This document shows, piece by piece, positions 23,151 to 64,000 of a DNA stretch of 64,000 bases (its first letter is position 1; every line of letters begins with the position of its first letter). A program made the position numbers and the translations under genes. The DNA is from Lepidurus packardi (taxonomy: Eukaryota > Arthropoda > Branchiopoda > Notostraca > Triopsidae). The notes below the pieces were generated by a model. It worked only from the letters and a program-made list of their open reading frames with translations, had not been told where the DNA came from and made no database searches. The stretch is taken from the NCBI GenBank assembly GCA_023053545.1, contig JAKZAN010000057.1:124001-188000 (forward strand), read 5' to 3'.

Positions 23151-23151
23151 A

Positions 23152-31920: not shown

Positions 31921-31924
31921 TTTT

Positions 31925-31957
31925 AGCTGGGCAAGTCCCTTCAGGGACTGCCCAGCT
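31925..31957. repeat. Helentron 5' subterminal hairpin
   Basis: AGCTGGGCA(A)GTCCCT pairs with AGGGACTGCCCAGCT with a one-base bulge. Its left arm is also the 5' member of the asymmetric terminal inverted repeat. Confidence 0.85.
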
Positions 31958-32365
31958 TATAGTATCGTCTGAGGAGTCAAACCTCGCGTGTCAGCTTGCC
32001 TCGGAAGGTGCCCGTAAGCCTTGTAGGATTGAGGGGTGGGGATGGGGGGAGGAAGATAAGGCAGTTTTGCTAGAGGCAGAATCGGTAACACGGTTCAGTG
32101 GATCAACGAGCTAACATTCCTGGTGCGCAAACTCATGCCATGTAAAGTCGCAGTTGGCTCTGCGTGCCAACATTCTTTAGTTTTGGCTCGTCTTCGTCTA
32201 GTGTGTTGGTGTGGAAACGCTGCTTGTACGTTGTAGCGTCGTTGTGCTTGCGTTTTTATTGTTCTCGAGTTTTGTGCTAGTGAAGTTTCTTCTTCTCCTT
32301 TTTTGTCGGTTAGTTTTCTCCTTTTTAACAATATCGTGTTTTGGCGTATTACTTGGGTTCGTTGT

Positions 32366-32776
32366 TCGTTCACTATCGTAAGTCTGCTTCATTATTTTCT
32401 TATTTTTTTCGTATTTTTATTGTTCTTTCTTACCATTTTTTAGTTTGTTGATTTGTCTTTGTGTCGTTTTATGTTATTGTGTTTGTTTATTTTGCAGGCT
32501 GTAGGCGACCGTTTAGTTTTAGTGGCGGGATTCGTCACTGAGATTTGTGTTTTAAGCAACTGAAGAGTTTTTCGTTCACTATCGTAAGTCTGCTTCATTA
32601 TTTCCTTATTTTTTTCGTATTTTTATTGTTCTTTCTTACCATTTTTTAGTTTGTTGATTTGTCTTTGTGTCGTTTTATGTTATTGTTTGTTTATTTTGCA
32701 GGCTGTAGGCGACCGTTTAGTTTTAGTGGCGGGATTCGTCACTGAGATTTGTGTTTTAAGCAACTGAAGAGTTTTT
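32366..32776 (+). repeat. 206-bp tandem duplication of a 5' intron-exon unit
   Basis: Two nearly identical copies (32366-32571 and 32572-32776). Each contains CACTATC|GTAAGT, a T-rich stretch, TTTTGCAG|GCTGTAGGCG and an exon-like tail ending AAGCAACTGAAGAGTTTTT. The copies look like duplicated donor, intron, acceptor and exon in the untranslated leader of the ORF at 32886. Confidence 0.9.
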
Positions 32777-32885
32777 CCATCTTTATATCACGTTAGTATT
32801 TATTTTCGAATACATAAAACTGGTGTGTCATATTTAGACCTCTATTTTGCTTGCTTGTTATTTGTTTTCGCTTGTGGGGATTGTC

Positions 32886-35800
32886 ATGCGGCTTATATGT
32901 AAAGCACCATATTCGCAGGGATGGCATGGATTTTCTGATTCTAGTCGTGGTGTTCAATGTACACCTATGGCTTTTATGGCAGTAGTTTGGAGTTATTTTT
33001 GTCCCACTGATAGTTGGCATGCTTCAGATATGTGCTCGATCATGGAATTGGGGGATAAGATATATCGAACTTATCGTCACAGTCATGCGTATTTTAGTTC
33101 TAAAGAGTTGCCGGGAGTTATGGAGGTAGATGGTGTTGGGGTTTTCGAATTGTGTAGGCATGGTGATACATTGTTTGGTTTGGTTCTTCCATCTTCAGAT
33201 TTCCGTTGTTGTACTGAGCTAGGGGATGCTGTAAAAAGTGCGCAGAGTTGTGTTGGTCTGCTTTTTATATGTCGTGATTTGTGTATTAGTGTTATTGAGC
33301 GGCTTGGTGTATATTATCTATTTGATTCCCATGCACGTGATGCGTTTGGTCAGAGGTGTTCAAATGGTAGTGCTGTGGTGTTGGAATTTACTTTTGATGA
33401 TTTGGTTTTGTACTTGCGTAATTTCTTTGGTTATGGGGGTAATCCGCAGTATGATGTTGTACGTATTTGTTGCTGTGAATGTAGATCTTTACCTGTTTGT
33501 GATCGGTTGCGCACTATTGGAGAATGCAAATTGGGAAGGTGCTCTCAATATCGGGAATGTTTAAGTCTGTCTATGGAGAATGCTTGTTATGATCGTGATG
33601 AGATTCTTACAGTTTCTCGAGATTTTGAGATTTTAGAGACTGAACGGAAACGAAAGAGAACGAAAGTTGAAAGAAGCGTGAGTGACGTGCTGTTCAACCG
33701 TGATGTTGCAAGTGATTTAGATGAAGTTTCTGAAAAGCGAAATTGTATTGATTCTTCTTTTGGCAATCAGTCTTTAGTATTACAGGATGAGTTTAATGTT
33801 TCTAATAATTGTAACCGCTTGCCGTCTAATTTAAGTAGAGAAAGTGAAGTAATTCAGGAAAAGGTTTCTAATGTAGAAGCTGAGTCTGGTGCTAACCATG
33901 TATGCGAACATTTGTGGGATACATTGAAGTTCTCGTGTGAATTGTGTTCCGCTCGCTTTTTCTCGGAGAAGGTTCTTGGATTACATAGAGTCGAATGTGA
34001 CTGTAGAGTAAATCCGACTCGTTTTTATTGTTACTTCTGTGCTAAACGATTCCGTTCTGATTGTAATCTACGGGATCATTTACGGTGGAGTATTGGTTGT
34101 GGAAAACATATTGATATGATGACATCTTCGCGTATGTTTGGTACTACTACGAGAAAACAAGTTGAAAACGCATATGGGAAGTTTGATAATGCGTTGAAGT
34201 GTGAAAAGTGTGGGTCTTGTTTTACTCATTTGCGGTCTTTACGGAGGCATAGTAAAAAATGCTTGGCGAGGGATGTCATGGGAATTAGAACACCTTACTA
34301 TGAGATATGTTCGGAAGAAGATCAAACTGGTCTGAGAAATAAGAGTGCGTCATCGTTGGATGGTGAAGTCCGTCTCCTTACCAAGGAATGTGTGGATAAT
34401 TCGTTTGTAGAGAATAATTTTCGGGGAATTGGAACTCATTCTGGAACAGTATTGAAAGAGAGTAAGTTCAGTGAGCAGTTAGCTAGTTGTACTGTTTCTG
34501 GCAATGAAGATTGTTGTAGGGATAGTTGTGTTAGCGTTGTCAAAGGTGACGACTCAAAGATTGATAGTTTTCCGACATTCGTTGTTAATGATTCTGCTAC
34601 AATCATTGGAGGAAGTAATAGTATTAATAAATTTTCTTGTGACCTATGTAAGAGGACGTATAGTTCGTTGTCGAATTTTCGTAAACACAGGAAGAAATGC
34701 AAGTTGAGGGTAACTACAGATCTTAGTGGCTGCGCTCTTCGTGAGAAAGAAGGAAGGCTGTCAACAATACGAGATTTGGATAAGAATGGTGGTGTGTTTC
34801 GTGATAATAAAGGTGTCCAATCTGCGAAAAATTGTACGCCTCCAGACAACTTCACGACAGTTTTAGGCACAGTTGATAAAAATGATGAAGCTTATTTCTG
34901 TGATTGTGGCATGCATTTCAGGACTAGCAGGGATTTACGTAAACACTCCGACATTTGCAATGTGTTTCCTTACTGTGATATTTTTTATGTACCTCGAAAG
35001 TGTGCGCAGTCTGTTTCATTGAGTGTCGTTTACTTAGCGTTACAGTCTTCTTTACGTTTAAATTTATGTGATATGGGAACTGACAGTATTGAAATGGTGA
35101 GTTGCATTAGCAGGCTGGGCTTATTATTGTACAAGTTATTTCAAGATAATAATGTTCCTTTGAGTGTAACCAAAATGCCGAGAATATTTGCCTTTCTGGA
35201 ATTAGGTATCTCTTTTTCTTGTACATTTAGTGTTTTGTGTAGTAATGTATTACCTTCCGAATTTACTGTGTACTTCAGCTTAGCATTGCGCGAGGGCAAT
35301 TATTTTATTGTAGAGTATAGAAGGTTTTGCGTTGGTCTATCTGTTTGTCCAAATGGCGATATTGCAGTATTCACTAGTCATAATAGTAGTAGACATTGCA
35401 GTGCGTATTGCAGTTCACATGAGCGTTGCTCAAAGGTTACTGTAACAAGTAGTTTTAACCTTCCTCAGTTACTATGCAAATGTTTTGTTGGATGGCATGA
35501 CAGACATCTTATTACTATATACTCTGTGTTTTTTAGTATAAACTGTATTGATTCAGAAAGCGTACCCTTTCAAGTCTTTGAATGCATATTAGGTTTGGAT
35601 CATAAATGTATAAGTTGTAAATCTGACTTAGTAATTTGTAATTGTGTACATCAAGGGCATGGAAGTGATCTGTGTCAAAAAAGTCAATCGGATAGAAGTA
35701 ACACGAAAATTAATATGCTTAATGTAGAAGAAGATAACCGAAAGCTTCATACACCAATTAGTGAGGGTGAATTGTATGTCGGACAACACAAAAGCAATTA

Positions 35801-36866
35801 TTCCAGTAGTATGCGTAAAGTCCTATGTAAGATGAAAGAACTTCTAAAAAACGGCCCAGACTTTGTTTGTGGATGTTGTGCGCAATTATTTTTTAAACGC
35901 ACTTTGGTACGGGCGGATAAGGTTCAAGAAGAAATTAGGGAATTAAAAGGTAGTATAGGTCGTAAGGCCAGAGAATTATTTTCTAGCTGTTTTCGAGTTG
36001 TAAGTATCGAGTTTATTTGTATAACTTGTAGAAAATATATTAAAAAAGGTAAAGTTCCTCCGGTTTCTACCCTAAATGGTGTATGTTTCCCGGAATTGCC
36101 GAACGAGCTAGAAGTTTTGAATTCGATGGAGCGTCGGCTTGTATCGCCTCGTCTTATGTTTTTAAGAGTACAACCACAGCGTCAAGGTGGTCAGTTGAAA
36201 CTGAAAGGTAATGTTATTAATATTCCTCATAATATAGACGAAACTGTTACAGAACTGCCACGTATGCTCAACGATACTGGAACTATAAAAGTATCTTTAA
36301 AAAGAAAGTTATCTTATAATAGACCTGATTCTTTTGAAACGGTGCGTCCAAATATAGTTCGTAATGCGGCAGCGTTGTTAGTAAGGCGTCCTTTATTTAT
36401 TTCTCATAAGATATCGTTTGCGGACACTTGGAAGTTTATACCTGAAGACAAAGTTCCCGAACTTAGCTCAGAAGATATTGTAGTTTCTGACACCTTGTGT
36501 GACAGTTTGTATGAAAATAATTGTGTTCCTGGTAATGCAAGTGAGAAGGAAAACTATATTGAGGAATTGTCCGAAGACATTGCATTAAGTCACATGGACA
36601 CAGTTTTGTTAGACGATAGTTTTTTACATGGAGAAGGGGATGATTTAGTTCACGTTATAGCTCCTGGAGAAAATCAACGTCCGTTGGGTTTACTGAAAGA
36701 TGAAGATTGTGAGGAACTAGCTTTTCCACATATTTTTTGTGGATACTCACGCCCTAAATATAAAAAACGAAAAACACAATCGTCATTAAGTGATGGTAGG
36801 ATATGTTTTTTAAATACTTTATTTTTTTTTTTTTTTTTTATTTTTTTGAATCTAAATCCATCGTAG
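32886..36866 (+). CDS. Helentron ORF: C76-like peptidase, zinc fingers, DUF6570 (no Rep/helicase)
   Basis: A long frame of about 1320 codons from the ATG at 32886. N-terminal blocks SQGWHGFSDSSRGVQCTPMAF and YYLFDSHARDAFGQ resemble the peptidase C76 (herpes tegument-type deubiquitinase) fold, with candidate Cys and Asp-x-His. Four C2H2-like fingers follow (FSCELCSARFF; FYCYFCAKRF; LKCEKCGSCF; FSCDLCKRTY), then a DUF6570-type region (PPVSTLNGVCFPELPNELEVL... RRLVSPRLMFLRVQPQ). These domains precede the Rep/helicase part in Helitron proteins. Here the reading ends after FPHIFCGYSRPKYKKRK in a T-rich tract near 36800, before any Rep motif, so it is truncated. Other animal Helitrons may carry OTU instead of C76. 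Confidence 0.7.
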   Translation: MRLICKAPYSQGWHGFSDSSRGVQCTPMAFMAVVWSYFCPTDSWHASDMCSIMELGDKIYRTYRHSHAYFSSKELPGVMEVDGVGVFELCRHGDTLFGLVLPSSDFRCCTELGDAVKSAQSCVGLLFICRDLCISVIERLGVYYLFDSHARDAFGQRCSNGSAVVLEFTFDDLVLYLRNFFGYGGNPQYDVVRICCCECRSLPVCDRLRTIGECKLGRCSQYRECLSLSMENACYDRDEILTVSRDFEILETERKRKRTKVERSVSDVLFNRDVASDLDEVSEKRNCIDSSFGNQSLVLQDEFNVSNNCNRLPSNLSRESEVIQEKVSNVEAESGANHVCEHLWDTLKFSCELCSARFFSEKVLGLHRVECDCRVNPTRFYCYFCAKRFRSDCNLRDHLRWSIGCGKHIDMMTSSRMFGTTTRKQVENAYGKFDNALKCEKCGSCFTHLRSLRRHSKKCLARDVMGIRTPYYEICSEEDQTGLRNKSASSLDGEVRLLTKECVDNSFVENNFRGIGTHSGTVLKESKFSEQLASCTVSGNEDCCRDSCVSVVKGDDSKIDSFPTFVVNDSATIIGGSNSINKFSCDLCKRTYSSLSNFRKHRKKCKLRVTTDLSGCALREKEGRLSTIRDLDKNGGVFRDNKGVQSAKNCTPPDNFTTVLGTVDKNDEAYFCDCGMHFRTSRDLRKHSDICNVFPYCDIFYVPRKCAQSVSLSVVYLALQSSLRLNLCDMGTDSIEMVSCISRLGLLLYKLFQDNNVPLSVTKMPRIFAFLELGISFSCTFSVLCSNVLPSEFTVYFSLALREGNYFIVEYRRFCVGLSVCPNGDIAVFTSHNSSRHCSAYCSSHERCSKVTVTSSFNLPQLLCKCFVGWHDRHLITIYSVFFSINCIDSESVPFQVFECILGLDHKCISCKSDLVICNCVHQGHGSDLCQKSQSDRSNTKINMLNVEEDNRKLHTPISEGELYVGQHKSNYSSSMRKVLCKMKELLKNGPDFVCGCCAQLFFKRTLVRADKVQEEIRELKGSIGRKARELFSSCFRVVSIEFICITCRKYIKKGKVPPVSTLNGVCFPELPNELEVLNSMERRLVSPRLMFLRVQPQRQGGQLKLKGNVINIPHNIDETVTELPRMLNDTGTIKVSLKRKLSYNRPDSFETVRPNIVRNAAALLVRRPLFISHKISFADTWKFIPEDKVPELSSEDIVVSDTLCDSLYENNCVPGNASEKENYIEELSEDIALSHMDTVLLDDSFLHGEGDDLVHVIAPGENQRPLGLLKDEDCEELAFPHIFCGYSRPKYKKRKTQSSLSDGRICFLNTLFFFFFFIFLNLNPS

Positions 36867-37084
36867 GCTTCCGCCTGTTGATGGTTCTTTATTCTCAGTT
36901 GCGGTGATTACAATATATTGTTAAAATTGGCGAACAAGTAAAACAGGTTAGTGGACAAGGGAAGGTATTATACCTCATCTTGGTCCATACAGGGTTAAAA
37001 CTGATGGGAAAAGGAGAGGAGGGTAAGGATAGGGAGGGAGGGCTGCGAGTAAACTTAGGGTTTTGCTAGTTCTTTCATTTGGTG

Positions 37085-37365
37085 CGCAAAGGTTGATAAT
37101 AATCCGAATGTTCTTGGATCCGAAAGGATAGTTTTGGGGTTGAAATGAATTTTTAAAATGGATAATCCCCGCAGAAGTTTCGCACGATCTTGATTGAGTC
37201 TGCTACAGTGAATCAGGAGATGTGGTACGTCTTGTTTAGCTTGAGATCGGCAGATACAAGAGTCGCTGTCAATCTTTTTAATGCGTTTAAGGTAAGCTTT
37301 GCAGGCGAAATGGGTTGTTCTGATTTGAATGATTGTTGATAAAATATGGCGGGGAATCCCTGAGG
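37085..37365 (-). pseudogene. Non-LTR retrotransposon 3' ORF fragment
   Basis: One minus-strand frame reads RTTHFACKAYLKRI...SDSCICRSQAKQDVPHLLIHC, the C-x-C...H...C zinc-binding region that ends reverse-transcriptase proteins of jockey/CR1/I-type elements. No reverse transcriptase domain remains nearby. Confidence 0.6.
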
Positions 37366-37376
37366 CTTTGAGCTCC

Positions 37377-37991
37377 CATATTAATGACGCTCGTCATGAT
37401 ATCGATTTACTTACAGGTGATATTATTATATTTTCCGAAACTCGCATTGACTATTCTTCTCAGGTATTACCTACCATAACATTACCAGACTTTACGGGAT
37501 ATTTTAATCAATCACCCATTTCCCACACTGTGCATGGTTTGGCGGTTTTCTATAAAAATGTATCTCACGCTCAGAATATCACCTTTCGTAACTTCCCAGA
37601 TATAGAAACAGTCACACTCATAACTCATTTCAATGTCCTAATAATCGGGGTTTATATCAGACCAACAGCAAAAGCACATAGTGTAATAACTGCATTCGAA
37701 TCCATTTTCGAACAATACCACACTATCCAAAATATCGTAATACTAGGTGATTTTAATATAGACTGGCTACTACATACTTCGTATAACAACGCAGTTATCA
37801 ATTTCTTAACGAATACTCATAATTTCTGTCAGTTGACTTCCATTCCAACATCCAATGGAAATACTACTATTGACCACATTTACATTAATCGTAATTACCT
37901 TCATAATAATGCTTTCACACACGGAGTGTCTGAAACCTACTATACTTATCACAAGGCTATATGGTTAGCATTTCAGGGTACCCTTTCCTAA
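37377..37991 (+). pseudogene. APE-type endonuclease domain remnant
   Basis: A single frame with DIIIFSETRID (Glu motif), HGLAVFYKN, VILGDFNIDWLL (Asp/Asn motif), TTIDHIYIN and SETYYTYHKAIW (the Ser-Asp-His block, where Asp appears as Tyr). This is the exo_endo_phos fold. Helentrons carry such an endonuclease after the helicase, and the sequence resembles those more than LINE endonucleases (from memory). The altered SDH motif suggests decay. It starts without an obvious start codon of its own. Confidence 0.6.
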
Positions 37992-39418
37992 TGCCATCCA
38001 GTCTGAATCGAATCAACACCATCAACTGTTGCGCTCCAAGACGATAAACATCAATCAACACACGTACGAAAACTTGTATACAGCTGTTCATTTTATTTAC
38101 TCGAATCTGCAAATAGTTTCACGGCACGAACATCAAGACCATTGCAGAAGAACGACGCCACTCCTCTCTATTCCTGCCTTACCTTCACTAAACGTCGTTA
38201 CAATTTCCGTTCGCTGAACAATTACTACATTCTGCGCTCATGCTAACGTATCATTACCAATAAGTCTGTGCTACTAAAGATCCCATTCGGTAGGATACCT
38301 TTTTCTATGTTCAACTTATTAAACATATTTAAACTTAGGTGTTTCCCGCTTTTACGTCGACAAAAACGACGACATTCTCAACACAACAACAACAATCATC
38401 AGTTCCACAAGGAGCCCTAAAAACATCTACCAGAAGCTTGACAACATCTCCTGAATTTTGTCCAATATACTGTAGACGCAATCCTACACGACGACCGTTA
38501 CCACGGCTCGGAGTGCTGCCCTTTCACTCCAACACGTAATGCAAACCGCGTTACTGCCCAAATTCACATTCTTCTTCGACACACCCAGTGTCTCCAACCT
38601 ATTATACTTAGCACAAAAGTATATGCTTACTACTCAAAGCTACCTAACGTACCTATACCCAGTTCATTCTTAACATGCACACATTAACTCCAAGTGCTCC
38701 ACAACCTCACGGTCACCTGCAACTTTGCCTCGTTACACATGGCATCTCCTAATGACGTCTACTTACCACCGAATCGTTACCATAGACTTCTACAATCCAA
38801 AACGGAATACAACATACAATACACACACGAAAAGCTGCATACAGTACACTATGGATTTACTACAAGCCCCACTCCACAACATTCCACAAATATTTTCTCC
38901 GAAGGAAGACACGATTGGATACACTATGCCCATGCAAGTCAGAGACGTTATTATTATTTATTGCATTTCAATAAGGTCAACGCCTCTTCAAAACTGACAT
39001 ATTCAAACTTCGCTGCTCCATAATTTACGTCATTACAAATCCACCACTCTTCAACGGAACAACAACAAGAATCTTTAGTCGCAAAATTCGACCAATGGAA
39101 AATCTCCACGAAAGTCCCAAACATCTCTACGGTTCTCTTTCATATATTAGAGACGCAATCCTACACGTTCATCTTTCCCATGAGTCCCAGCCCCAACTAT
39201 TTCAACTTCTTATTTCAAACAAGTCAACTCACATATCCACAAACGCTTCGGAATCCCGCAATAGGCTCCAAAACAACATTTTCTATCCTGCAACTCTCAC
39301 TGTCCAAACTGTTATCACAATTTCAAAATACTTCAGTCTTTCTAAACAGTTCAATGATATGAAATACAATCCAATTAAAATCCGATACAGAAAAACAGTA
39401 ATAACTCCTCTATAATAT
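37992..39418. other. AC-rich region, no recognisable gene
   Basis: Plus-strand composition is C- and A-rich with many short overlapping frames and no recognised motif. It may be decayed Helentron sequence. It ends at the left edge of the Mutator-like gene. Confidence 0.45.
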
Positions 39419-42023
39419 CTACACCAACCTAATCCAACCTAATCCTCCCGACGCCAACCCTTTCCGGTGTTTCCGCGCCGGCTTGTTTAAGTTTTCGTAC
39501 GCTTTCCTCGCTTCAGGTTCTTTACACTTGCCGTACTCTGTAGCTTCTGAAGTCCAGCTGGACGGGAGCATAATTGCTTTCAAAACATTTTTGCGAGGAG
39601 TAGAATCCCGCAATTTACAAACCTTCCCGAATAACGAGGCAGTTACTCTGTTTCGTCTACCTTCTATCCACTCAGGGCAACTTCCCTGGGCGCGGGTCTT
39701 TTCTTCCAGTGACACAATTTCTTCTGATGTAAGCTGCAGAAGATGACGTATTCGATCTGCTTCTCTTTCAAGAGAATCAGGGTCCAAGTCTGTGTTTCCG
39801 TAATGAAGGTCCAAACCTCCAGAAGGCTCTCCACCCTGAACAACATCAGCAGAAACTGCTGTGTTTTGCCGTTCTTGAGACGATCTAGAATAACGCTCTC
39901 TTCCTGCTCTGGTGCTTGCAAGGTGTTTTAACTCAAATGCGTCAAGCACAGGAGAAGTAACTTTATATTTCTTTAAAATGGGAACATGAAATCCTCTCCC
40001 ATAAAGGAAATTCAACACAGCACCATAGCAGCGGTGCGTGTACGCTCCCCTTTGCGAGCGAAGAATTTGCTTTCCGCCAACAATTTTGGCAACACTAGAC
40101 ATGAACCTCTCTGCTGCGTTTGTAGTCACCTCTTCTAACAAATTGTGACTTTTCTTTCTCACGTAATCAAGTGCTGCACAAACTTCACGGTAGAGGTTCG
40201 GATCTATCTTGCTTATCTTGTTTTGTCCAGCAAACTCACAGCCCTTCTTCCCGGGCAAGGGTTTCTCGCAAGATCGGTGGTCCCCAAGTAAGTAATGCTT
40301 CGGACCATTGTCCAAGGCCTTGCAGAGGTCCTCAGCGGTACCCTTATTTCGCGCATTTCTTTTTATCGCACCTCGGGCAGCACGTGTAAGTTTCGAAATA
40401 AGGGACTTCACGAGTACCCTTCTGTACTTGATGTTTTTGGCCTGAATCAAGTAAAGCTTCTTTGTGTAATTCTTGATTACGTGATTGGCGCATTCGATTT
40501 TTTTGGGAAGCTTCTGACTTCTAGGCGTAGTTGCCAAGATTTTATTGAAAGTCGAAGAATCTCCGTCCCCAATAAAATGAGAAATACGTACCTTATACTT
40601 TTTTTCACATTCTCTTATTCCTTTGCTCAGGATGTCCGCTTCCATAGCTGTGGAGGGACCGTCCCAGTTTTTAAAACATTGATGGGGTGTTGGCGCTTGT
40701 TGTAAACGGGCAGCTCTGGTACAAACCGAACAAAACTTGTTGCGAGTGTCAACGTATAGTACTTTGTTTGTATATGCACCAATTAGCACACCCACGCCAG
40801 ATTTTGCTGTATAGCGGGTTCCGTGACTTCGTTGGGACCATCCACCGTCACCGATAACGGTGATCAGTGGGAACCCTTCGTCATCAACGTCGCCTGCAGC
40901 TATAGCAGCTTCTATCTCTTCTTCCATCGCTTCACGCGTTGCTTCTTCTACTTCTTTGTGCCAAATTTCACCAACGGAGTGCTCCTTCTTACAAAATGTT
41001 TTTTTAGTCATGCAAGGTACACTAATGACTGAGCAAAGTTCCTCTAAAACATGATGCCCAGCACCCACCGCTACCAATCCCCAAGTCATTAGAGTGTTTA
41101 TGGATAAAAATTTCTTGTTAGGTGGCAAAATTATATCCTCTTCGTCATCAGATGTAGCCATCCTTTTCTTCGGCTTAGTCATTTTTCTGAAGCCTCTCTC
41201 TGAATCAATATACCACGCAGTTTGACATGCATCGCACCGTAGAAATAATGCGGTGAAAAAACCTTTCCTCAATTCTCTGCGAAAAATTAACCTACCTTTG
41301 CATGATTCGCCATGAGTCAAGAATACTTGTGCTGTAAGCTGGACGACATGCCCTAAGTCAACTATTCTTCTGCCTTTCACCCCACGCAACAACTCAGGTT
41401 GACTGAAAGCAGCTTCCTCTATATTCAGCTGAACTGCTTCAGTTTCCGCCTGGTCAAAACTTGCAGAAGTAATTTCGTCAGATAATAAATCTTCATCATT
41501 ACTTCGTTCAGCCACAGGGCTACTTTGTTCAGTAATGGCGTTCGCCTAGGATAATGGAGTTAGCGTTATGAATTTCATGGGATTGACTAGTACTAGTCAC
41601 TAAAATCACTCACCTGGCTATACTGTTTTTTCTCATCTACAATTATCCGTTCAAGTTTCACCCCACGCAACAACTCAGGTTGACTGAAAGCACCTTTCTC
41701 TATATTCAGCTGAACTGCTTCAGTTTCCGCCTGATGGTCAAAACTTGCCGAAGTAATTTCGTCAGATAATAAATCTTCATCATTACTTCGTTCAGCCACA
41801 GGGCTACTTTGTTCAGTAATGCCGTTCGCCTAGGAGAATGGAGTTAGCGTTATGAATTTCAAGGGATTGACTAGTACTCAGTAAGTCACTAATCACTAAC
41901 CTGGTTATACTGTTTTTTCTCCTCTACAATTATCCGTTCAAGTTTTTCACGTTGAATACGGAGGTACTCACGGGGATTTTTTTTCTTCCTCTTGAAATGG
42001 CCCGAATTTCTCTTAGAACCCAT
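39419..42023 (-). pseudogene. Mutator-like transposase with C-terminal YqaJ exonuclease segment
   Basis: The first exon starts MGSKRNSGHFKRKKKNPREY at 42023 and ends EEKKQYNQ. The main exon (41515 and left) has an HVVQLTAQVFLTHGE region, a zinc-like CDACQTAWY, catalytic blocks TVIGDGGWSQRSHGTRY and ISHFIGDGDSSTFNKI, ECANHVIKNYTKKL, and a C-terminal YqaJ-like start (CPEWIEGRRNRVTASLFGKV; EYGKCKEPEARKAYE). The animal 'Mutator-like' domain followed by YqaJ is a known pairing. The YqaJ part stops short of its usual catalytic core, so the copy is 3'-truncated, and an exon near the 5' end is duplicated (see 41320-41830). Confidence 0.78.
41320..41830 (-). repeat. Tandem duplication making a chimeric exon
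   Basis: The sequence encoding ANGITEQSSPVAERSNDED through LRGVK is present twice, about 300 bp apart (around 41375-41550 and 41660-41830). In the right-hand copy LRGVK is fused directly to LERIIVDEKKQYSQ, the end of the upstream exon. The splice site and intron after it recur as well, consistent with unequal exchange. Confidence 0.8.
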
Positions 42024-42443
42024 CTCAGAATAAATAGAAAAACCAAGTCACATGCGTTTTCGCGTACTGACGAATAAAGATTGTTTAGGCAAGAGATTCT
42101 TTTGATAAAACCCTTTCCTATATAACGCGTCTGTCCTCGCCTTTGTAGTTTACCCATTCGTTTATTGCCTGACGGGGAGAAAAGACTAGTGAAAGAATAA
42201 ATGGATAAATAGTAATAAAAGGGTCATCGAGTTGACGGTATTTGGCTTGACCTCAGGTTACAAGGGAGAGTCATTTTCTGTAAGTAGCCGAAATAAAGTT
42301 ACCCATTACATTAGCAGGCTACGCGCAGTCTAGCAGTGACTACTTAGCGTCAGTGTTTTTTTAATTATCTTCATTGATTATTGGTACGTAAGTTTCATTA
42401 TGTTTAGTTTAGTGAAATTATTTTAGAGTATTTATCAATAGGG
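42024..42443. other. Spacer between two divergent transposon genes
   Basis: No gene seen. It must contain the border between the Mutator-like element and the next element; neither terminal repeat could be identified. Confidence 0.4.
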
Positions 42444-48914: not shown

Positions 48915-48916
48915 TA

Positions 48917-49861: not shown

Positions 49862-49934
49862 TTTATTAATACTGAATTACCTCACTGAGGTAACCTCACC
49901 TCAGGTAACCTATTATTCCTGCTAAACAAAAAAA

Positions 49935-52350: not shown

Positions 52351-52696
52351 GGCCATTTTGTTGTTAGCTGTGACAACAGCTTATATCGTCCAGACTTTAG
52401 CCTTGTTTTTGAATGACGATTGTTTTTCGTATTCTTAATAAGACTAATAGTGTCCTGTTTCTTAATAAGACTAGTAGTAATAGTTACCTGTCCAATAATA
52501 GTGAAGACAAAGAAGATTTTTACTAAGTCTTATAGTGAAAAAAAAACAACACTTCTAAGAAAGTGTTGTTTAAATTAATTGGTAAGTTTTTAGAAGAGGA
52601 CAGTTTGATATTACTATTATTTTTATAATACTCTTTCCGGTTTGGGATCCCGCGCTTTTTCAATACTTTTAACTTCATTTGAAGAAAACGATTAAC

Positions 52697-54426
52697 ATGG
52701 ACGAATTCACGGATTTTTTCGAAAGTTTGCGAACTAAGATACCTTACTGGCGTGAATCCTACCCAACGGATGATGCTACGTTGGTTGAGCGCACTGTTTC
52801 TGATATCGAGTCTTATTATCGCGCAATTAGTGGGTTACTACTGCGAAAGGTTAGTGCGTTTATGATTTAAACAAATTAATCTATTTTCTGGCGACTGCCA
52901 TTCAGGAAGCATTTACTCCTCCTGTCGTTGCGACACTTGAAAGTTTACTTGATGGTGTTAGTGCCGCGCTGGAAATCTGGAAGTCGTTACCAGTAGCCAC
53001 CAGCTCGTGTTGCGCTTTGTATTTTGCTCCGAATAAGCAACGTACACTTCACGATGGCGGTAATGGGAGACCCAGGTACTTGATTTTACAAGAACAAGTT
53101 CAAGAACTCTGCTCTTTCGGTAAGCTAGGATATTTAAAAGTAAATGCAATAGCCCCGTCATTTCGATATAGGTTTTAACTGTAAACAGATTGCGGGGATG
53201 CTAGGAGTCTCGCGTAATACTATGTCTCGTCGCTTTGCCGAATGGGGGTTACAAAGGAAATTTAGGTAATTGTGTTGTTTTAAATGACTTGCTCGTTTTT
53301 GTACTTTTAGTACGTCCATTACCTAGGTTTTCGAATGTTTCCGACGCTGAATTGATCAACGTAATTCGAGAAATTCATCTTGACCATCGACATTTAGGAT
53401 GTACCGTGCTTTATGGGCTTCTACGTGCAAGAGGTTTGCACATACAACGAGACAGAGTCCATTCAGCCCTTCGCCAATGTGATCCGCTTAATGTAACGTT
53501 TCTAACTTCTTTTTTATTCGTGTTAGTTGTATTTTATTGCCTCTCAGGTTCGAAGGAGATGGGGTGCGCTGGTGACCCGAAAAAAATATTCGGTGAAGGG
53601 TGCCAATTCTCTCTGGCATATAGATGGCCATCATTCTTTGATTCGCTGGGGCATCGTAATCCATGGTGGCATAGATGGCTTTTCTCGGCTCGTTGTGTTC
53701 CTTTCTGCGAGCGGAAACAACCGTGCCGCTACTGTGTTGAAGCGTTTTGAAGAAGCTGCCGAGAGCTACGGTTATCCTTCACGAGTGAGAAGTGACAAAG
53801 GGCTAGAAAATGTCTTAGTTTGTCGACGAATGGTCGAAGTACGCGGTGTTGGTCGGCGAAGTTTTATTACGGGACGCAGCGTTCACAATCAGAGGATTGA
53901 ACGTCTTTGGCGCGATGTGTACCGTTGCTTCGTTATCACGTACTATTCCCTATTTTACCATTTCGAACATTCGCAGATACTCGACCCATCGAACCCGTAT
54001 CACATTTTTGCTCTACGCTACGTCTTCTTGCCAAGAATTAACGCGGGACTTAAAAGATTTCGACAAGGATGGAACTTCCATAAACTTCGCACGGAACGTA
54101 ATTGGAGCCCTAATATGATATGGGTAAATAACATGATTAGCCTTGCCGAAGAGCCTGACGAGGTTGACGACAGTTATGGAGTCGATGATGACGGTCCAGC
54201 TGACCCAGAATTGGACAATTACAATGAAGCCTCCGAGGATGAAGCAATTAACGAAACTGCGGATTACCCGTGTCCCATGAGTGGCGAGAATTACCGTCTA
54301 CTTTGCGAACATATTAATCCTCTGAAAATCTCTACAAATCATGCGCAAGATGTTTTCGAGGAAGTTTTGAATTATTTGGAAACCTTGCGTGAGAATAACG
54401 ATTTCGTCATGTTGCCGCGAGTGTAA
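52697..54426 (+). CDS. Integrase-like transposase (rve family) with HTH
   Basis: Exons include 52697-52849 (MDEFTDFFESLRTKIPYW), 52906-53119, 53172-53265 (helix-turn-helix: IAGMLGVSRNTMSRRFAEWG), one from about 53311 (SDAELINVIREIHLDH...LGCTVLYGLLRARG) and a long exon with the catalytic core: SLWHIDGHH, GGIDGFSRLVVFL, RVRSDKGLEN and HNQRIERLWRDV, i.e. D-D-E. A tail rich in Asp/Glu follows. This is the animal 'integrase core domain' family with an IS3-like layout. The junction 53265/53311 is one nucleotide out of phase, either a small indel or a different splice site. It is first in line of the two element genes. Confidence 0.8.
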
Positions 54427-54508
54427 GTTTCCCCGCAACTGTTAGCTTCTTGGCGCTGGACGGGTAAACACGTTTTTGCTCCAAGTTTTAATACCAAAAT
54501 ATCTCGTG

Positions 54509-57500
54509 ATGGATTCGTCATCGAAGGTTTTAAAACAAGTATTGTGGGATTTGGGAAAGGAACATTTATTGGAAACCTTTAAATTAAATATGGTAATTAC
54601 ATTTTCAATGACTTTGTGGACACCACATGTTATTGACAATCAACCGCATGCTATATTGTTTATATATTTTTAACAGATGCATATAGTAATAACTTTCTGA
54701 TGCATAGACGAAGGCGTGTCAAAATAATCTGTTCTCTTGTCTTTTTGGACAGATAACCGACGAAAACGCCAAATTCATTAGCGAGGCTCAACTAAACGCT
54801 CTTGGTTTGACAGAGATTGGTTTGCAGCTTAACTTTAAGTCTTTCTTCCGGAAACATGAAGAAGGTACCTATGGCTTACCTGGACAAAGCCAGTGTACCA
54901 ACGCTGTTTCGCAGTATAATTCTCCTTCCATAGGTTTGTTATTTTCAACTTAATTTGTTTTATACATACCACTATCGTCTTTTAGTATAGGACAGTCTCA
55001 TGAAAATGCGTTCCGGCGATTATCGCAAGCTGAATGTGCCACAAATAATTTGTCTCAAGTCGAGAAGGAGTGTCGTGATGCATTCAAACCATACAGCAAG
55101 CCTACAAATTTCAAAAACAAACGTCACAAAATTGATGAATCTTATTTTGACTCACCATCATCGGTAGCTAAGCTAGAGTCAAGCCGTGGTAAACGGAGCA
55201 TGCCGCGTCATTTGGAAGATGACCGTATTGTTGGGTTTTTGAAATGGAATTCGCAAACAACAGCGGCCAGAAACGTCATTGTTGAAACGTCCATGCAACT
55301 GGGTGCCCACGATTCAGCAACCGTAGTGATGGAACGTATAATTTCCTTCTTGAGCCGTCGGCCAAAGGTTTATAAATATATGTATGTATATTGTATATTT
55401 ATTTATTCTTTTTCCCCTAGTTTGCCTTCGTGTCACATCATGATATCCAACTAGTCCGTGTAAAAGGGCGAGAGGTTCACGAGGTAGATGTCGAAAAGAT
55501 AGATGGGGCAACTATTTGTAGGTTTTATCCAAAAGAAAAGTCTGCCGTTTATTTTCGAGCTCGGGTAACCCGTTTCATAACAACAATAAAAATCGTAAAC
55601 CTACTATCGTTTTACAGGAATGGGAATTGGTTAAAGGAGAGAATCCAAAGCGAGCTCCCCAATCAGATTCCGACTCCGATTTTGAAATTACTGCCAGACC
55701 CTTGACGGTACACAGTCCTCGCTTCTTCAAACCTTTTACTTAATTCTGCCTTTTTTCATACCAAAACTTACCAGAAAAAGACAGTTGATCTTTCTTCTTC
55801 GGACACGGATTCCAATGCACGTACCCAGGATGTACCCCAGTATTCTGCGCTTTCTCCAAGTAAACCATCAGTCAAAGAGTCCGAAATCGCTGATGATGGT
55901 AAAAAAAGTGAAACCCTCCCCGATTTTGTTAATTTTATGGACTCCATTGGCGGGTACTGCACTAATATTTTTTCTAAACAAAAATACTTACACAGTTACA
56001 AGTAGGATTGTTTCAAACGGAACTGGGTCGCGTGAGCTTAACCTTCCCGTCTTTGTCCCTGTAATGGATACAACGTCCGTTGGCGACAAGTACGTGAAGT
56101 ATTTCCCACCTTCTTTAAGAGGCAACTAATTTTGTTCTTTCCAGAGCTAGTAATCGGTCCCTCATAATAGATGTGTTAAATACGCTCAAGTCAAGTATGC
56201 TGCCTGGCGTTGTCCAAATTTATTCAACAAGAAGCAATGCGTTTTCGAAGTTCTGCGAAAAGTCACAATTAGATAGCAAATTGGTGATGAAACACCTCAG
56301 CGTGACCCTGGCAGGGGAATCTGGAATTGACGCTGGAGCGTTGACTAGGGAGTTCTGTCGTCTTGCGCTTATTCAAGCTTTCCAGGAGCTGTGTGAGCCC
56401 GCCCCGTTTGGATATATTTTTTCATCCAGTGCACTGGCATTGGAAGAGGAGAAGTTCGTTCATTTTGCCAAACTTATCGTTGTCGCACTTTTGAATGGCC
56501 ATCCAGGTCCCAAAAGCTTCGCTCCGGCAGTCGCTAATTGGCTTTTGCAATGCCGTAAAGCTGACGCAGAACCGTCCATTTGCGATATTCCCGGAGAAGA
56601 ACTGAGAAGCACTTTGACGAATGTAATAATAAAAAAACATGTTGCGGTTATAAAATCAATATTTGCAGGTACGTGACGCTGGCTCGAAAGAGGAATTTTT
56701 AGCATTGCTTTCCCACACTGATTTGCTATCAAAACTTGGCTGCAGACGTTTGCCATCGTTTAACGAAAAGGATTCCTTTATTAAAGCGGCTTGCAAATTC
56801 TTTGTTATTCACAGCGTGAAAGCGCCGATGGACCAGTTTTTACAAGGTAAGCTGTTAATTACAGTGCTAAGTAAAGTGGACCAATAAACGATCCGTAACT
56901 TTTCATAGGTTTGGGAGAATTAAATTTCTTGGATTCGGCCAGACAATTGCCAGATCATTTCTGGCCGTTATTTGTTGCTAAATCAGTTGACGATATAGTT
57001 GCCAAGGAACTAGTAGAATTGTTCCAAATTGAGTTTGCGGATATCGGTAATACGAAACGCCCAAAAGAAGAGGCTGTTATAGAACACCTTTTTAACACGT
57101 GGCAAGAGATTGAAGGTGAATATAGAGCTATAGTTACACTTTTATAAAAAATTTTGACCTATTAATGTTTTCCGACTTTAGAGTGTCCGCTTCAATGTCA
57201 GATCTATTTGCCCGGCTTGACCGCTGCCGAAGATACCCAAACAAGTGAAACAGTAGCCTTAAGTCTGGGTTGCTTTCTCACATTTGCAACTGGTTCACAA
57301 GGGTTAAGCGCTGTGGGGTATGGGAGTTTTACCCCTACCATCCAATTTTACCACCCCGCGCCTGAAGAGGACAATGCTAAGTTTTATATCACTGCCCATG
57401 TATGTGCAAATACCGTCATCATTCCTGTTACCAAAAACTATCAGAGTTATGATGAATTTAAAACAATGTTCATCACTTCAATAGCGTCCTCACCAGAATT

Positions 57501-57513
57501 TGGCAGGATTTAA
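54509..57513 (+). CDS. SAM-like plus HECT E3 ubiquitin ligase, multi-exon
   Basis: Starts MDSSSKVLKQVLWDLGKEHL; the next exon (about 54754) continues a SAM-like helical domain (ITDENAKFISEAQLNALGL). A middle region has basic and acidic Ser-rich sequence (DLSSSDTDSNA). From about 56160 comes a HECT domain: HLSVTLAGESGIDAGALTRE, YIFSSSALALEEEKFVHFAK, and finally YITAHVCANTVIIPV, in which Cys sits at the HECT catalytic position, then ending EFGRI. It resembles the HECT region of G2E3-like proteins. Around ten exons with short introns. Expected activity is transfer of ubiquitin to a bound protein. Inside the transposon borders, it is element cargo, not a neighbouring host gene. Confidence 0.8.
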
Positions 57514-57539
57514 GAATATTCAATTTGATCATGCTATAG

Positions 57540-58080
57540 GCTATGCTATAGGTTAAGTTATTAAATTAACCTAACCCAACTTTAACCCATCCAGGTAAAA
57601 AAATAGCACACCGGTGTTTGCTGATTTCAATCTGAAGAGCAGCAGATAATAGTATTATTCAAGTGCCTTAAATTGTTTTTATACCAAATTGGTCCATTAT
57701 GATTATTGTTATCTGATTAGCATTTACTGTACTCAAGTGCCATTTATTCCAAATTGATGCGTTTTTATCGTTATCAGCAGTCCATTTGTGATCTCGTCTG
57801 TTTTGTGGCGACCCTCGTCTGATTTGAATATTACTGCATACTCAAGTGCCTTCAATAATTATACCAAATTAATTACAATTTTTTAATCGTTGCTGGCTTA
57901 TTACTACCGCGCTCTCATAAGTGCCTTCAATAATTATACTAAATTTGATCCTTCTATGCTGTTTGACTTCAATCTGTTATGATGGTGTCTGATTTCAATC
58001 TGAAGAGCAGATAATAGTATTATTCAAGTGCCTTAAATTGCTGTTATACCAAATTGATAAATTGGACGGTATTTGGTCCA
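57540..58080. repeat. Dispersed repeats downstream of the HECT gene
   Basis: Degenerate units containing CAAGTGCCTTAAATTG and TATACCAAATT occur about five times; TTCAATCTGAAGAGCAG...ATAATAGTATTATTCAAGTGCC occurs twice (57627 and 57990). Confidence 0.75.
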
Positions 58081-59658
58081 TTTTATGGTCCTTGATTATT
58101 AAGAAAAGAAACGGACGCATCTAACTTATCGATCGATCTTTAATTTATGTTTTATGTTTCATGCAGCATAGGTACCGGAACACTATAAAACAAGAATTAA
58201 CTTTAATGAATATATGCTAATTATCTAAATATATAAAATAAATGTTCAAAATAAATACAGATAAAAAAGATGAGCTATTAACAAATCCTGTGACCGTGCC
58301 GTTTATGGATTCATTTTAGCGTATCCGCGTCTAAGGTAAATATTTTGTGCTTGTGTTAATTATTAGCTATATATGATCCTGCTGTTCTAATAAATCAATA
58401 TCATCAAGTAATTACACTACCAAATCAGGCTATAGAAATTAATCAAGCAAACGCATCACTTCGAAGAAAAGTACTACAGAATTCCAATAATAAGTTTCGA
58501 ACAGATTCGATTAATAACGTACACTCCGTGTTATTTTTCACTGTATTGGTTTTTGCATGGGATTCAATTACAAAGATGTAATAATTTGACCACACTTTTG
58601 AATAATAAAAGGTTACGAGGGAGGGCAATAAAATTCTGCAGCAACAAAGATGAAAAAGGTGAATGAAAAATATCGAAACGAAATTGCAATGAAACAGGAA
58701 TTATTACTTTTAAAAAAACCGAATAATCTCAAGTACAGTATTTAAATACTCCATGTGAGGTTATATACCTTTATTAGTCGGATAGTCGTTGGAAGTAATT
58801 TAAATTATTCCGCGTGTTTGTGTGTTATATATTTATCTTTTCGTAGCAGTAAATTAACTGTGCGCCTATGTTCCAAATTAAATATAATTATAACGCTCAA
58901 TTAGAAAGAGATTTATTACTATAATACCCTTACCACTTTTTAACCATTATTATACAGACCCTTTTGAAACAATAAATCAAACAAATGAAGTACTACGGAA
59001 TGCAATTTATACATGCTATGTTTCAATGTATTTATTTTTGCACGATATAACAATCTGAAAAATACGTTTGAATAAAAGCGCTAAATATGGTACACGTTAT
59101 TATTTTGCGAGGAAAGGAACACGTATAATCTGCAACCATAATAATGCTCATATTATATCACTAACAGGTATAACCAACTTTAAAAAACATTGCACTATAA
59201 TGAAAAAACCTGTATTCAAATAAATAAGAGATTGTAGACCAGAAATAAGGATATAAGTATAATATCACAATAAACTGATGAAACTATATAAATTAACAGC
59301 AGACTATACCAATAATGAATAAACCTACTCCCATTAGAACTTATTAATTAACTCCTCAAACAAGTATAACGCTTATGAGTGCAATCTAAATACTTTATAT
59401 GTATTCGCCACAACAATATTATTATTACAGGCTTATTATTGTTACTATAGTGTGTAAAAAAAAACATTTCGCATAATATTATATCATGACATAAACAATC
59501 GGCATTCAAACAAATCATAACAAGAGGGGTTTGTTAAATGAACGTTAGAATATAGCAGAGTTTTGTTGAGGCTTTGAGCCTGTTTACTGTGGGCAATACG
59601 CAATAATAATAATAATAATAAATCATAAATAAATAACAATAACAAATAGGCGTGGTTT
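58081..59658. other. AT-rich interior of the IS3EU-like element
   Basis: About 1.6 kb, AT-rich, no gene recognised. Phrases about ...CGAAGAAAAGTAC(T)AC...AAT and a (TAA)n tract at 59602-59622 are present. Confidence 0.5.
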
Positions 59659-60436
59659 GGAAGCGAGCCTGGCCCGGGCCAGGCGATAAAATCAGTGAGT
59701 TGATAGCACTTGAAAACACAGTCGTTTCGCATTTCGCGTTTGGTTTGTATGTCTGTACGCGTTTTCAGAGAAAGTTTGATACAACTTGTTCGAAGTTGAT
59801 ACACTAGGTGGAGTTTGATACAAGTTGATAGCAGTTGATAGAAGTTTTGATACAAGTTGATAGCAGTTGATAGAAGTTTTGATACAACTTGATAGCGTTT
59901 GAAAGAAGGTTTGATACAACTTGATAGCGTTTGATAGATTTTTACGGGTCGTCTTTTAGGCTATCAGTCAAGTCCGTTTTCTGTTGTATATCAAATAGTT
60001 TTGGGGCTTACCGAATGCCATACCCCTCGACAATCCGATTGCAACTGGCAAGCTCACAATCACTTGTTCAAGCTGCCACCGTACACAACTCGTTAAACAC
60101 ATCACTCGCACACTCCAAGTCAAAGTCGGATATTTCGACTCCAAAAGCACAATGGATATAGACATTCCACAATGTTCAGTCACCAAATTGCTCAACATTC
60201 TAGGTAAAACCGACATCCTTACCGAAGAATTGATTGAAATAGTAGAAGCCACATTGCTCACGGAAGGCGACTTTCTGTACGAAGTGAATTTGAATACTCA
60301 TCAAGTAACAAATATTACACAAAAACAATCAACTCAATATTCTTCCAGTACTGATGAACCCAACAATATCGATAATAATTTCAATCTTGATAACTCTTCC
60401 AACATTGATGCTAGTAAGTCTTCCGACAACTATTAA

Positions 60437-60609
60437 AGTGTTCAACAGATAAATGTTGTATTTTGAATGTATTCATTTCTACAAGACAAGACAAGAATTG
60501 CTTAAATTTCCGAAACAATACTGAAAACATTTAAGAATTTTCTATATCTAATCAATGGAAGGATTACAATGGAATCCTACTGATATATCATTTATGAAAG
60601 TTTCTCCTC
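60437..60609. other. RPA-like gene 3' flank
   Basis: Non-coding AT-rich sequence following the RPA-like stop codon. Confidence 0.45.
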
Positions 60610-60880
60610 AACTTAGAATTTTAATATTATAATATTAAAATTCTAAGTTGACGAAATTTAATATGTACACAATACGGTATGCCGCATTGTGTATTTTCTA
60701 TATCTTTTCTATATCTTACGTATTTTCTATACCAAATCAATAGAACAATTCCAATACAATCCTAGTGATATATCATTCCTAAAACCTTCTCCTCAACTCA
60801 GAATTTTAATATTATAATATTAAAATTCTAAGTTGACGAAGTTTAATACACAATACGGTATGCCACATTGTGTATTATCC
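60610..60880. repeat. Two 40-bp palindromes in a 185-bp tandem duplication
   Basis: AACTTAGAATTTTAATATTA followed by its exact complement occupies 60610-60649; a copy with one mismatch lies at 60795-60834. Flanking words (GATATATCATT before, CACAATACGGTATGCC after) are also duplicated. Confidence 0.92.
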
Positions 60881-61008
60881 TAAATTCTATTTTTGCTTCG
60901 TTCCCTGTTTTCTTGAAGCTTTTTCTTTGCATCATTTCATATACTAAATTCTATTTTTGCTTCGTTCCCTGTTTTCTTGAAGCTTTTTCTTTGCATCATT
61001 TCATATAT
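60881..61008. repeat. 64-bp tandem duplication
   Basis: Two virtually identical units (60881-60944 and 60945-61008) starting TAAATTCTATTTTTGCTTCG. Confidence 0.92.
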
Positions 61009-61873
61009 TTTCTAAGCTTTTATTCGATGGCTTAGCCTTTACAACCTCTCAATCTATGAATATCTTTTATAACCCTGTTAATTCTACTGTCCTGTTCATT
61101 CTACCGCCAATTTTCGAAAAGACGTGCGATAAATTACACACCATTCAATAATTTGAGAATAATCTATTTTGAAACCATCTATAACAATTACGCAATGCCT
61201 ACCTAAATCAAGAGAAAAATATACCCTGTGTATGTGTAAAACACATCAAAGCTTTGCACTGCTTTATGTGTTATGTAAAACACATAAAACTTTGTATAAA
61301 ACACATCGTATTCCTTTGTTTGATCAACGTGCAATACATAATCGGATATAAACGTTCTTACTCTACATTTTGATTTCTTCCATTAAGTTCTTAAATTACC
61401 TAAATAATCCTTCTAGAATACCTAGACTTTTCCCTGATCTGCTTTTCCCGTTCCTTGAACATTATTTCGTTTGTTTCTCTGGCTATTCGATTAACTACAG
61501 ATAGAATCAACCGGCATACATCTTTCCACGACCACGACTCTCGAGACCGTTCAGCCTGGGTTATACTTCGCGTCAGCCGACCTGTAACTGAAGTGTCGTG
61601 CTGGACAATCAGTTCCGCTTGTATTACTATTTGATGATAACCTTTAGCATTATATAACCAATATCTTATCAATTAATCAATGCACTGTAGATTTTAAGAC
61701 CGTACCTTTCCTTCTGATCCTTCAATCAATTGTGCTTGGCATTAAAGTTCACAAAACGTTCGAAACTTACCATGAAAGCCTCAACAGAAAAACTAACAAT
61801 TCACATTGTCATTTCAGAAAACACTTTTACTAATACAACTACATCATTCTTAACCTAACACGTTCCTCTATGA
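61009..61873. other. AT-rich, no gene seen
   Basis: No coding or RNA feature is supported; a short AAAACACAT repeat occurs near 61240-61305. Confidence 0.45.
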
Positions 61874-62193
61874 CAGGCCTGTCCAACTTCTGACCCACTG
61901 AGAGCCACGATACTACGCAAGCATCAACCCGGAGGCCGGACAAGTCCGTTAACCGGGAGAGGGGGGGGGGCATTATATACTTCTGATAAAATAACATGAA
62001 AGCTTTCGATTTTTCAACTTTCCTGCGATTACACAAAGTTATTTTATTCCTTAGCTATACCTTCAGCAAAAGTATAGACCTAATACATGAAACAGTGTAA
62101 ATTCCCGAATACTTTTGTCGAAGAGGTCGGGGGCCGGATAAAAGCATCTCGGGGTCCGGATCTGACCGGCGGGCCGCCAGTTGGATAACCCTG
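61874..62193. mobile_element. 320-bp hAT-type MITE
   Basis: Ends CAGGCCTGTCCAACTTCTG and CCAGTTGGATAACCCTG are imperfect inverted repeats, flanked by 8-bp duplications CTCTATGA (61866-61873) and CTCTACGA (62194-62201), one mismatch. GC-rich subterminal CCGG words resemble known hAT ends. Non-coding. Confidence 0.85.
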
Positions 62194-62201
62194 CTCTACG
62201 A

Positions 62202-63109
62202 CTTCCCCAGCTCTATACATACGTCAAGTTCAAAATCGACTTTCACTTCCACACACTCCGACTTTAAAGCCAACCTCACACAATAAAAAGCCAAGAAGTC
62301 ATCAAAAGCCACCAAACTGTCTTCAAAACCCACTTCCTAAAATTCACTTAGCTAAACCATACCTTCTTTCCCATACCCTTACCATTAGGAACAAATTTAC
62401 GCAATAATAATCAAGACAGAGCCACATAAACATAATTTAGCCTGAAAAACTATTTACAACTACCATTAAAACAAAACCCTGTATATTTTGAAATAAATTT
62501 CGCTATACATTTCATACAATCCCCTCATTACAAACTACCGCTATAAAGGATAATCAAAATAAGAAGCACATACTACAAAGAAATATGGCCTGTCATATCT
62601 AAACATAAAGAAATAATTATTTACCACTCTTCATATTAAATTTTCAAATTCATACAAAAGATGTTACATTTAAACCTTCTTTACGACAAACTTCAAGACT
62701 AAACTTACGTCAAACAATGTTTCATACAAAAGCCTATTTTCTTTACTCGTCAACACTTCCATCACTTTCATCTCAATTAATCATATTTAGCATTAATAGC
62801 AATTAATCCTACTTTTTCTCCTACTTCTCGACGGTATAAACCAGCGTAAATAAACAATTGATTAACACAATTACCCACTTCTCATTAAATACATAATTTC
62901 AAGTTACTCGACTCCTTGAAATCAATATTCACATTTTCATGCAAAAAACACCCTTCCTAACTTTTATTATCTAACTACATCAAACTTAGATTTATTACTC
63001 ATATCATTTACACAATCAAAACTTCATCCAACTACAGCAGTCACAAAACGAGAAGCCCATTTACTACTGCCATCTCCTGGCTTTTCCAGTTACACTCTTC
63101 TCGACCTCA
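62202..63109. other. AT-rich, G-poor 3' part of the Helentron
   Basis: No gene is seen. The C/A bias of the plus strand is the same as at 48920-49300 and 50570-51250, supporting common origin. Confidence 0.45.
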
Positions 63110-63143
63110 ACTTGCCCAGCTTACTCGACAGCTAGACCTGTCG
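63110..63143 (+). repeat. Helentron 3' inverted repeat and terminal hairpin
   Basis: ACTTGCCCAGCT (63110-63121) is the inverted partner of the 5' repeat. The following hairpin CGACAG/CTGTCG with a 6-nt loop ends three bases before the insertion point. Confidence 0.85.
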
Positions 63144-63146
63144 TCT

Positions 63147-63998: not shown

Positions 63999-64000
63999 TA

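Follow-up and report, generated by a model that had tools for sequence, protein, structure and literature searches.

The window analyzed here is a 64,000-nucleotide stretch of the genome of the notostracan Lepidurus packardi (assembly GCA_023053545.1; contig JAKZAN010000057.1, hereafter C46, positions 124001 to 188000), which we compared with the whole assembly (G000; 108.6 Mb in 344 contigs). A net 31,226 bases interrupt a minus-strand transposase gene in the window, and the original prediction, made from the sequence of the window, attributed this split to a single 31-kb Helentron at positions 31921 to 63146. We examined this block, the Helentron that frames it (termed H1), and the elements that lie inside.

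The host transposase gene

The part of the host gene to the left of the block (its 3' part; 30538 to 31919, minus strand) was 99.2% identical to C5:20415-21801, and the other part (63149 to 64000, minus strand, identified by the flank search and comparison with C5) starts with TTT followed by CAGCA. Using 600-base queries from either side of the segment (31321-31920 and 63147-63746), we found 15 matches in the genome for the left flank and 8 for the right one, the window's own included, and both flanks adjoined on contig C5 (21198-22397, composed of 21198-21797 and 21800-22397, at 99%). There, the transposase gene, 98.6 to 99.2% identical to the window flanks, runs uninterrupted through the predicted point, as expected if the segment is removed; this rules out that the segment is a natural intron, and the insertion in the transposase gene is confirmed.

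An empty TT site, which the original prediction had proposed to look for, is present on C5 as CC-TTTTTT-CAGCA, with a run of six T, and the filled ends in the window read CC-TTTTT|AGCTGGGC... and ...GTCTTG|TTTCAGCA (the bar marks the element edge). A T6 target was converted into T5 plus T3, with no duplication longer than the T-run, and the five T at the left edge (31920 to 31924) are target T, element T, or both. The predicted edges mark a genuine insertion, but 63147-63148 (TG) belong to the element, the core of which is 31925-63148. The codons proposed for the rejoined gene, E-T-R-T-D-A-S-F, read E-K-R-T-D-A-S-F by eye in the empty copy. Similarity between C46 and C5 extends from window position 30538 outward to 75525 (11.5 kb past the window), interrupted by the block and by one more gap, and ends on both sides; we therefore take the C5 sequence to be, in all likelihood, a paralogue of the host transposon rather than an allele.

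Termini of H1 and its counterpart on a second contig

The ends of H1 proved to be of the Helentron type, as predicted. Sequence reading and folding placed at the 5' end (31925 to 31957, plus strand) a hairpin with the 12-bp subterminal repeat AGCTGGGCAAGT (31925-31936), and at the 3' end (63110 to 63148, plus strand) the repeat ACTTGCCCAGCT (63110-63121), a stem-loop (63126-63143), and TCTTG. The two repeats form an exact inverted repeat, and one equally good was obtained in 32 of 200,000 draws from random places of 40 and 60 bases in the window (the few pairs <500 bases apart were skipped and still counted in the total). Upon comparison of folding energies with those of 200 shuffled sequences, no shuffle was as good as the 5' hairpin (-15.1 kcal/mol; z, -5.58), and 7 were as good as the weaker 3' stem-loop (-5.0 kcal/mol; z, -2.19). 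Canonical Helitrons have 5' TC and 3' CTRR ends and insert between A and T (PMC4067079), whereas H1 ends in TTTTT|AGCTGG and CTTG|TT, and the second Helentron of the block, H2, in TTTTT|GGGTTGG and CTTG|TT.

With a 600-base query and a 36-base pattern (up to 3 mismatches), the right end of H1 was found only on C46 and on contig C8 (160,611 bases), in the same insertion, and the left 600 bases were likewise found on C46 and C8. Both contigs have the same outer junctions, separated by 49.6 kb on C8, and they differ by 50 mismatches in 68,853 aligned bases in nine blocks (0.07%, gaps left out); the two contigs may represent alleles, or the region may have been duplicated recently. On C8, the left part comprises, in order, the H1 5' end, an H1 frame, a long interspersed nuclear element (LINE), H1 Rep, a long terminal repeat (LTR) retrotransposon, and an H1 frame, and the right part comprises a Mutator/YqaJ transposon with H2 inside, another transposase (T2), an unassigned stretch, an RPA-like gene, and the H1 3' end. 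The window copy lacks 19.46 kb of this, at the point where its LINE fragment now meets the H2 endonuclease. An 8,011-bp element with a 6-bp duplication is specific to C46, and a 6.36-kb TTAA-flanked element and a 0.5-kb element are specific to C8. With the same insertion measuring 49.6 kb on C8, with elements nested in it and a piece of H2, the description of the block as one 31-kb Helentron had to be abandoned.

Coding content of H1

The N-terminal part of the H1 protein (32838 to 36818, plus strand) contains a tegument-like (C76/VTD) protease region, C2H2 fingers, and DUF6570 (the last two from Pfam) and is interrupted by the LINE. On C8, the frame with the same regions occupies 76741-80769, H1 Rep occupies 82526-84124 (Helitron_like_N; E, 4.3e-24), and the H1 frame runs to 89390, where it ends at the Mutator/YqaJ insertion. 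The Rep signature on C8, RVEFQQRGSPHIH, agrees with ExQxRGSPHxH (S, not L), and the Reps of H1 and H2 both have RVEFQQRGSPHxH. Motif reading showed the Cys and Asp-x-His of the protease region in place in H1 and in H2 as well; the two regions are 43 to 44% identical, and Herpes_teg_N scored an E of 0.015 in H1 and 7.7e-4 in H2, both below the Pfam cut-off. We regard this region as a putative protease.

The Rep domain is part of what the deletion took from the window copy of H1; neither Rep nor helicase is detectable in that copy, which is dead or at best non-autonomous. A PIF1-type helicase and an AP-like endonuclease fused to H1 Rep were not found by tblastn with the H2 protein; this H1 copy is defective. 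The internal genes were predicted to fit the Helentron class, which held for the C76-like and DUF6570 parts, now assigned to H1, but the endonuclease is the tail of the nested H2. The RPA-like gene, also predicted, is presumed to be an H1 gene, but it is cut by the 8,011-bp insertion: its parts lie at 51253 to 52011 and, by comparison with C8, at 60023 to 60433 (both plus strand), and C8 has an uninterrupted 388-amino-acid (aa) frame (115149-116312). The H1 3' region (60434 to 63109) follows and is split further on C8 by the 6.36-kb TTAA-flanked element, a Mutator/YqaJ transposon. When the LINE, H2, and Mutator/YqaJ pieces, the T2 frames, and the 8-kb element were subtracted from 31,224 bases (several edges being approximate), ∼13.1 kb remained, 4.3 kb of it without assignment, which leaves ∼9 to 13 kb of the window copy to H1. 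With its missing helicase and endonuclease, an unnested H1 may have measured 15 to 19 kb, and the 15 to 20 kb predicted after subtraction of nested elements was a fair guess.

H2, a second Helentron

H2 is complete on C8 (91334-102852; 11.5 kb), where a 2214-aa frame (94714-101355) with Helitron_like_N, PIF1, and a GDFN motif combines Rep, helicase, and endonuclease in one protein, the endonuclease having been scored on the part in the window. That part (37367 to 37991, plus strand; Exo_endo_phos; E, 7e-8) is the C-terminal end of the protein, 99% identical to residues 2006-2214 of the C8 frame, and is followed by the H2 3' region and end (37992 to 39485, plus strand), with the repeat ACGCCAACCC (39451-39460), a stem-loop (∼39464-39481), and the shared right edge CTTG|TT. 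None of 200 shuffles was as good as the H2 5' hairpin, and 54 were as good as its 3' stem-loop (-5.0 kcal/mol; z, -0.58), which, unlike a textbook 3' end, does not stand out from shuffled sequence. An RPA-like frame (93104-94168), 21% identical to the one associated with H1 (E, 1.4e-13), precedes the H2 frame. The 5' region of H2 also contains an imperfect inverted duplication (L032; C8:91870-93335), within which this RPA-like frame starts. Homologues of residues 1-1762 of the H2 protein comprised 22 proteins at 24 to 38% identity, and 20 of them have the PF04843 tegument-like domain in a precomputed Pfam list.

We then looked at the copies of H2. Its left end occurred at 8 places besides C8 (98 to 99% from the T-run onwards) and its right end at 8 places besides C46 and C8 (99 to 100%), plus one at 77% without the edge. 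Pairing by position gave two full-length copies, on C8 and C4, and seven shortened ones. As the C4 copy has the same span (∼11.5 kb) and a 2214-aa frame, C8 represents the original state and the window a deletion. The left edge TTTTT|GGGTTGGCG (six T on C8) and the right edge CTTG|TT were each present in 8/8 copies, which represent seven independent sites since one pair among the eight has identical flanks. The target changed from T7 to T6 plus T3 on C8 and from T7 to T5 plus T4 on C4, so that all three empty-site comparisons (H1 and the two H2 copies) yielded a net gain of two T. Helentrons are described as preferring TT, with edge Ts counted to the element and no further modification of the target (PMC4067079), and the net TT gain of H1 and H2 fits this rule as that source gives it. 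With these copies sharing both ends, all at T-runs, H2 looks young.

Other elements of the block and of the window

The LINE fragment (36819 to 37365, minus strand, approximate edges) has a poly-T edge and was named by eye from a reverse-transcriptase-like open reading frame (ORF) on C8:80961-82673. At the deletion junction (37363 to 37367), which corresponds to C8:81269 to 100730, it is joined to the H2 endonuclease domain. Read by eye, the 179-base repeats of the LTR retrotransposon (C8, ∼84124-88740) are identical to each other, and a 5-bp duplication (TACGT) is present. The target of H2, a Mutator/YqaJ transposon, remains in the window at 39486 to 43521 (minus strand; Mutator transposase; E, 2.5e-74) and spans 89393-106889 on C8, with the terminal inverted repeat (TIR) GGCCCCGGTATAC at TTAA. 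The H2 site is empty in another Mutator/YqaJ copy; the bases flanking it adjoin at 13 further places, one of which was read (L061). A YqaJ-like domain scores weakly in the Mutator-type transposase (E, 7.6e-4, below the cut-off), the elements have the TIR GGCCCCGG and TTAA edges, and we noted them at 39486-43521 in the window and at C8:89393-106889 and C8:117625-123988.

Part of the T2 gene, lacking its 5' part, lies at 43522 to 46928 (plus strand), with relatives at 71 to 72% that match from query base 1; its right edge was not found. A frame to the left of Mutator/YqaJ was considered as T2 sequence; this was rejected, since none of six T2 relatives matched it significantly. Its match to Helentron Rep extends as far as ...DSEYFDL, comparable to ...DNEYYAL in P0015. 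The 8,011-bp element (52012 to 60022), absent from C8, has long TIRs (TATGGCATTCGG.../...CCGAATGCCATA), a 6-bp duplication (CCCCTC), and an integrase-core ORF (53527-54426, plus strand; rva_4; E, 1.6e-81), and it interrupts the RPA-like gene. A "HECT-like" reading of 56119-56676 within it was made by eye and had no Pfam support. Outside the block, 9663-27738 is Maverick/Polinton-like, with a packaging-ATPase-like frame (Pox_A32; E, 1.3e-6) and polymerase, integrase, capsid-like, and protease-like frames recognized by eye.

Related Helentron families in the genome

The H1 Rep query gave 43 matches in the genome, fragments included: H1 itself, the two H2 copies at 40%, a family H3 at 70% with frames of up to 2658 aa, a family H4 at 67 to 68% with 15 matches and frames of up to 2722 aa, and partial or broken relatives on C1 and C3. 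The 2658- and 2722-aa frames are uninterrupted. A 600-base piece of C8 (L071; C8:3001-3600) proved to be a repeat that travels with H4; used as a marker (19 of its 40 matches), it paired by position with 11 of the 15 H4 Rep matches, the remaining 4 being unpaired. The span from Rep to this 3' marker was 13.1 to 13.5 kb in 10 copies and 8.2 kb in one; the H4 ends were not found. As 10 of the 15 listed H4 copies span that much from Rep to the marker alone, large Helentrons are normal in this genome, where the original prediction had taken a size of 15 to 20 kb as unusual. H2, H3, and H4 look recently mobile.

Two side observations concern these families. In the interval that separates an H4 marker from an H3 Rep, C46 (98422-112561) is ∼13.6 kb shorter than C8 (3001-30741), and the H4 Rep found on C8 has no listed match there on C46. 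A 2.86-kb derivative of H2 occurs at two loci, C3:6763610-6766580 and C5:9867800-9870760, with the same flanks at both and each time near an H3 Helentron frame; H3 may have carried this nested H2 passenger on moving.

Discussion

The block is a nest of ordinary parts; its size comes from nesting, and its Helentrons are new families with a described architecture. We propose that, very probably, H1 inserted into the T-run of a host transposon and was turned into a nest by later insertions and a deletion. H1, which codes for a tegument-like protease/DUF6570/Rep protein and, probably, for an RPA-like one, would have entered an older multicopy transposon, presumably by rolling-circle transposition, as inferred from its family. 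It would then have served as a landing pad for the LINE, the LTR retrotransposon, Mutator/YqaJ at TTAA, the T2 gene, and the integrase element, and H2 would have entered a T-run of the Mutator/YqaJ element inside H1. Recombination between two Mutator/YqaJ copies probably removed the H1 helicase and endonuclease, and on the window contig a 19.46-kb deletion would have fused the LINE to the H2 tail, so that 31 kb would be the outcome of nesting minus deletion. The contig-specific insertions with short duplications support this scheme.

Several observations weigh against this scheme. With no second full copy of H1 in the genome, its two ends are paired on the strength of a single empty site and the matching 12-bp repeats. 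A search for other copies with the same two ends, as the original prediction had proposed, left the right end on C46 and C8 only, while relatives of the left end (81% over 68 bases) occur at four other places; these sit within a ∼2-kb repeat, and no matching right end was found by string search within 1.5 kb on either side of two of the four. The flanks of Mutator/YqaJ are unequal, with a Helentron Rep on the left and T2 on the right, which led us to recombination between two copies and makes part of the history inferred. Tblastn with the H2 protein (E, 1e-3) found no H1 helicase in C8:40001-140000 or in the window and the 20 kb that follow it. The stretch with small repeats at 46929 to 51252 (∼4.3 kb) is unassigned. 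The RPA-like gene probably belongs to H1, by position and strand only, and Pfam returned no RPA family for either RPA-like frame, even at an E of 10; the RPA name thus rests on the original prediction and on the mutual resemblance of the two frames.

The unequal Mutator/YqaJ flanks, the foreign T2 in the middle, and the undetected H1 helicase would also suit two half-Helentrons, with ends from different H1-family copies joined by recombination. On C5, however, the outer flanks adjoin and differ from the filled site by TT alone, a state that requires one insertion at that point, and we consider a junction of two half-elements very improbable. A giant Helentron moving its contents as cargo, in a unit of 31 to 49.6 kb, would account for the single continuous insertion between matching ends and for the clean empty site, but the contents are transposons with ends and duplications of their own, some present on one contig only, and the 600-base and 36-base searches found the right end at no other site, making this origin very improbable. 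Finally, as the deletion junction joins two elements of repeat families, C46 might be misjoined, in which case the block of 31 kb or the difference of 19.46 kb might not be real. The same outer junctions on two contigs speak against an assembly artefact, and breakpoints that share ∼1 base (by eye) make repeat collapse unlikely, so we attach hardly any probability to it.

An H1 insertion later enlarged by nesting agrees in several respects with known systems. The Helentrons and HINEs described from mite, Culex, and Drosophila by Thomas et al. 2014 (PMC4067079) likewise have palindromic subterminal repeats, a 3' stem-loop, T-rich or TT sites, and variable edge Ts, as well as a Rep-helicase-endonuclease protein, an RPA gene, and shortened non-autonomous partners with both ends in common. 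What differs here is the presence of a tegument-like protease region and DUF6570 ahead of Rep, as well as the swelling of H1 by nested elements, the helicase and endonuclease of which were not found. Viral-tegument-like deubiquitinase (VTD) domains have been found mainly among Helitrons belonging to the Helentron subclass, and zebrafish ones show deubiquitinase activity (PMC9741609). With the VTD/C76 Helentrons of that study, our elements share the N-terminal protease region (Cys, Asp-x-His) and, in H2, a C-terminal AP-type endonuclease; they differ in being separate families and in scoring below the cut-off of the Pfam tegument model in H1 and H2. Maize Helitrons reach up to 39 kb via captured gene fragments (PMC6431247); the size range is alike, but size here comes from nested transposons.

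An apparent 31-kb single transposon is thus resolved as a readable nest of successive insertions, and the three empty sites provide clean evidence for T-run targeting by Helentrons (net +TT in 3/3). A wider reading, which we hold to be unlikely, is that the genome has had a recent burst of unusually large intact tegument-protease Helentrons (H3 and H4, with frames of ∼2,650 to 2,720 aa, H4 measuring no less than 13 kb without its 5' part and present in many near-identical copies) and that nested elements are preferentially taken up and carried by them, so that composites of tens of kilobases, such as the present one, could be mobilized with their passengers. The presence in one eukaryotic genome of Helentron families that look young and have uninterrupted frames offers material for studying how Helentrons move and what role their tegument-like protease plays.

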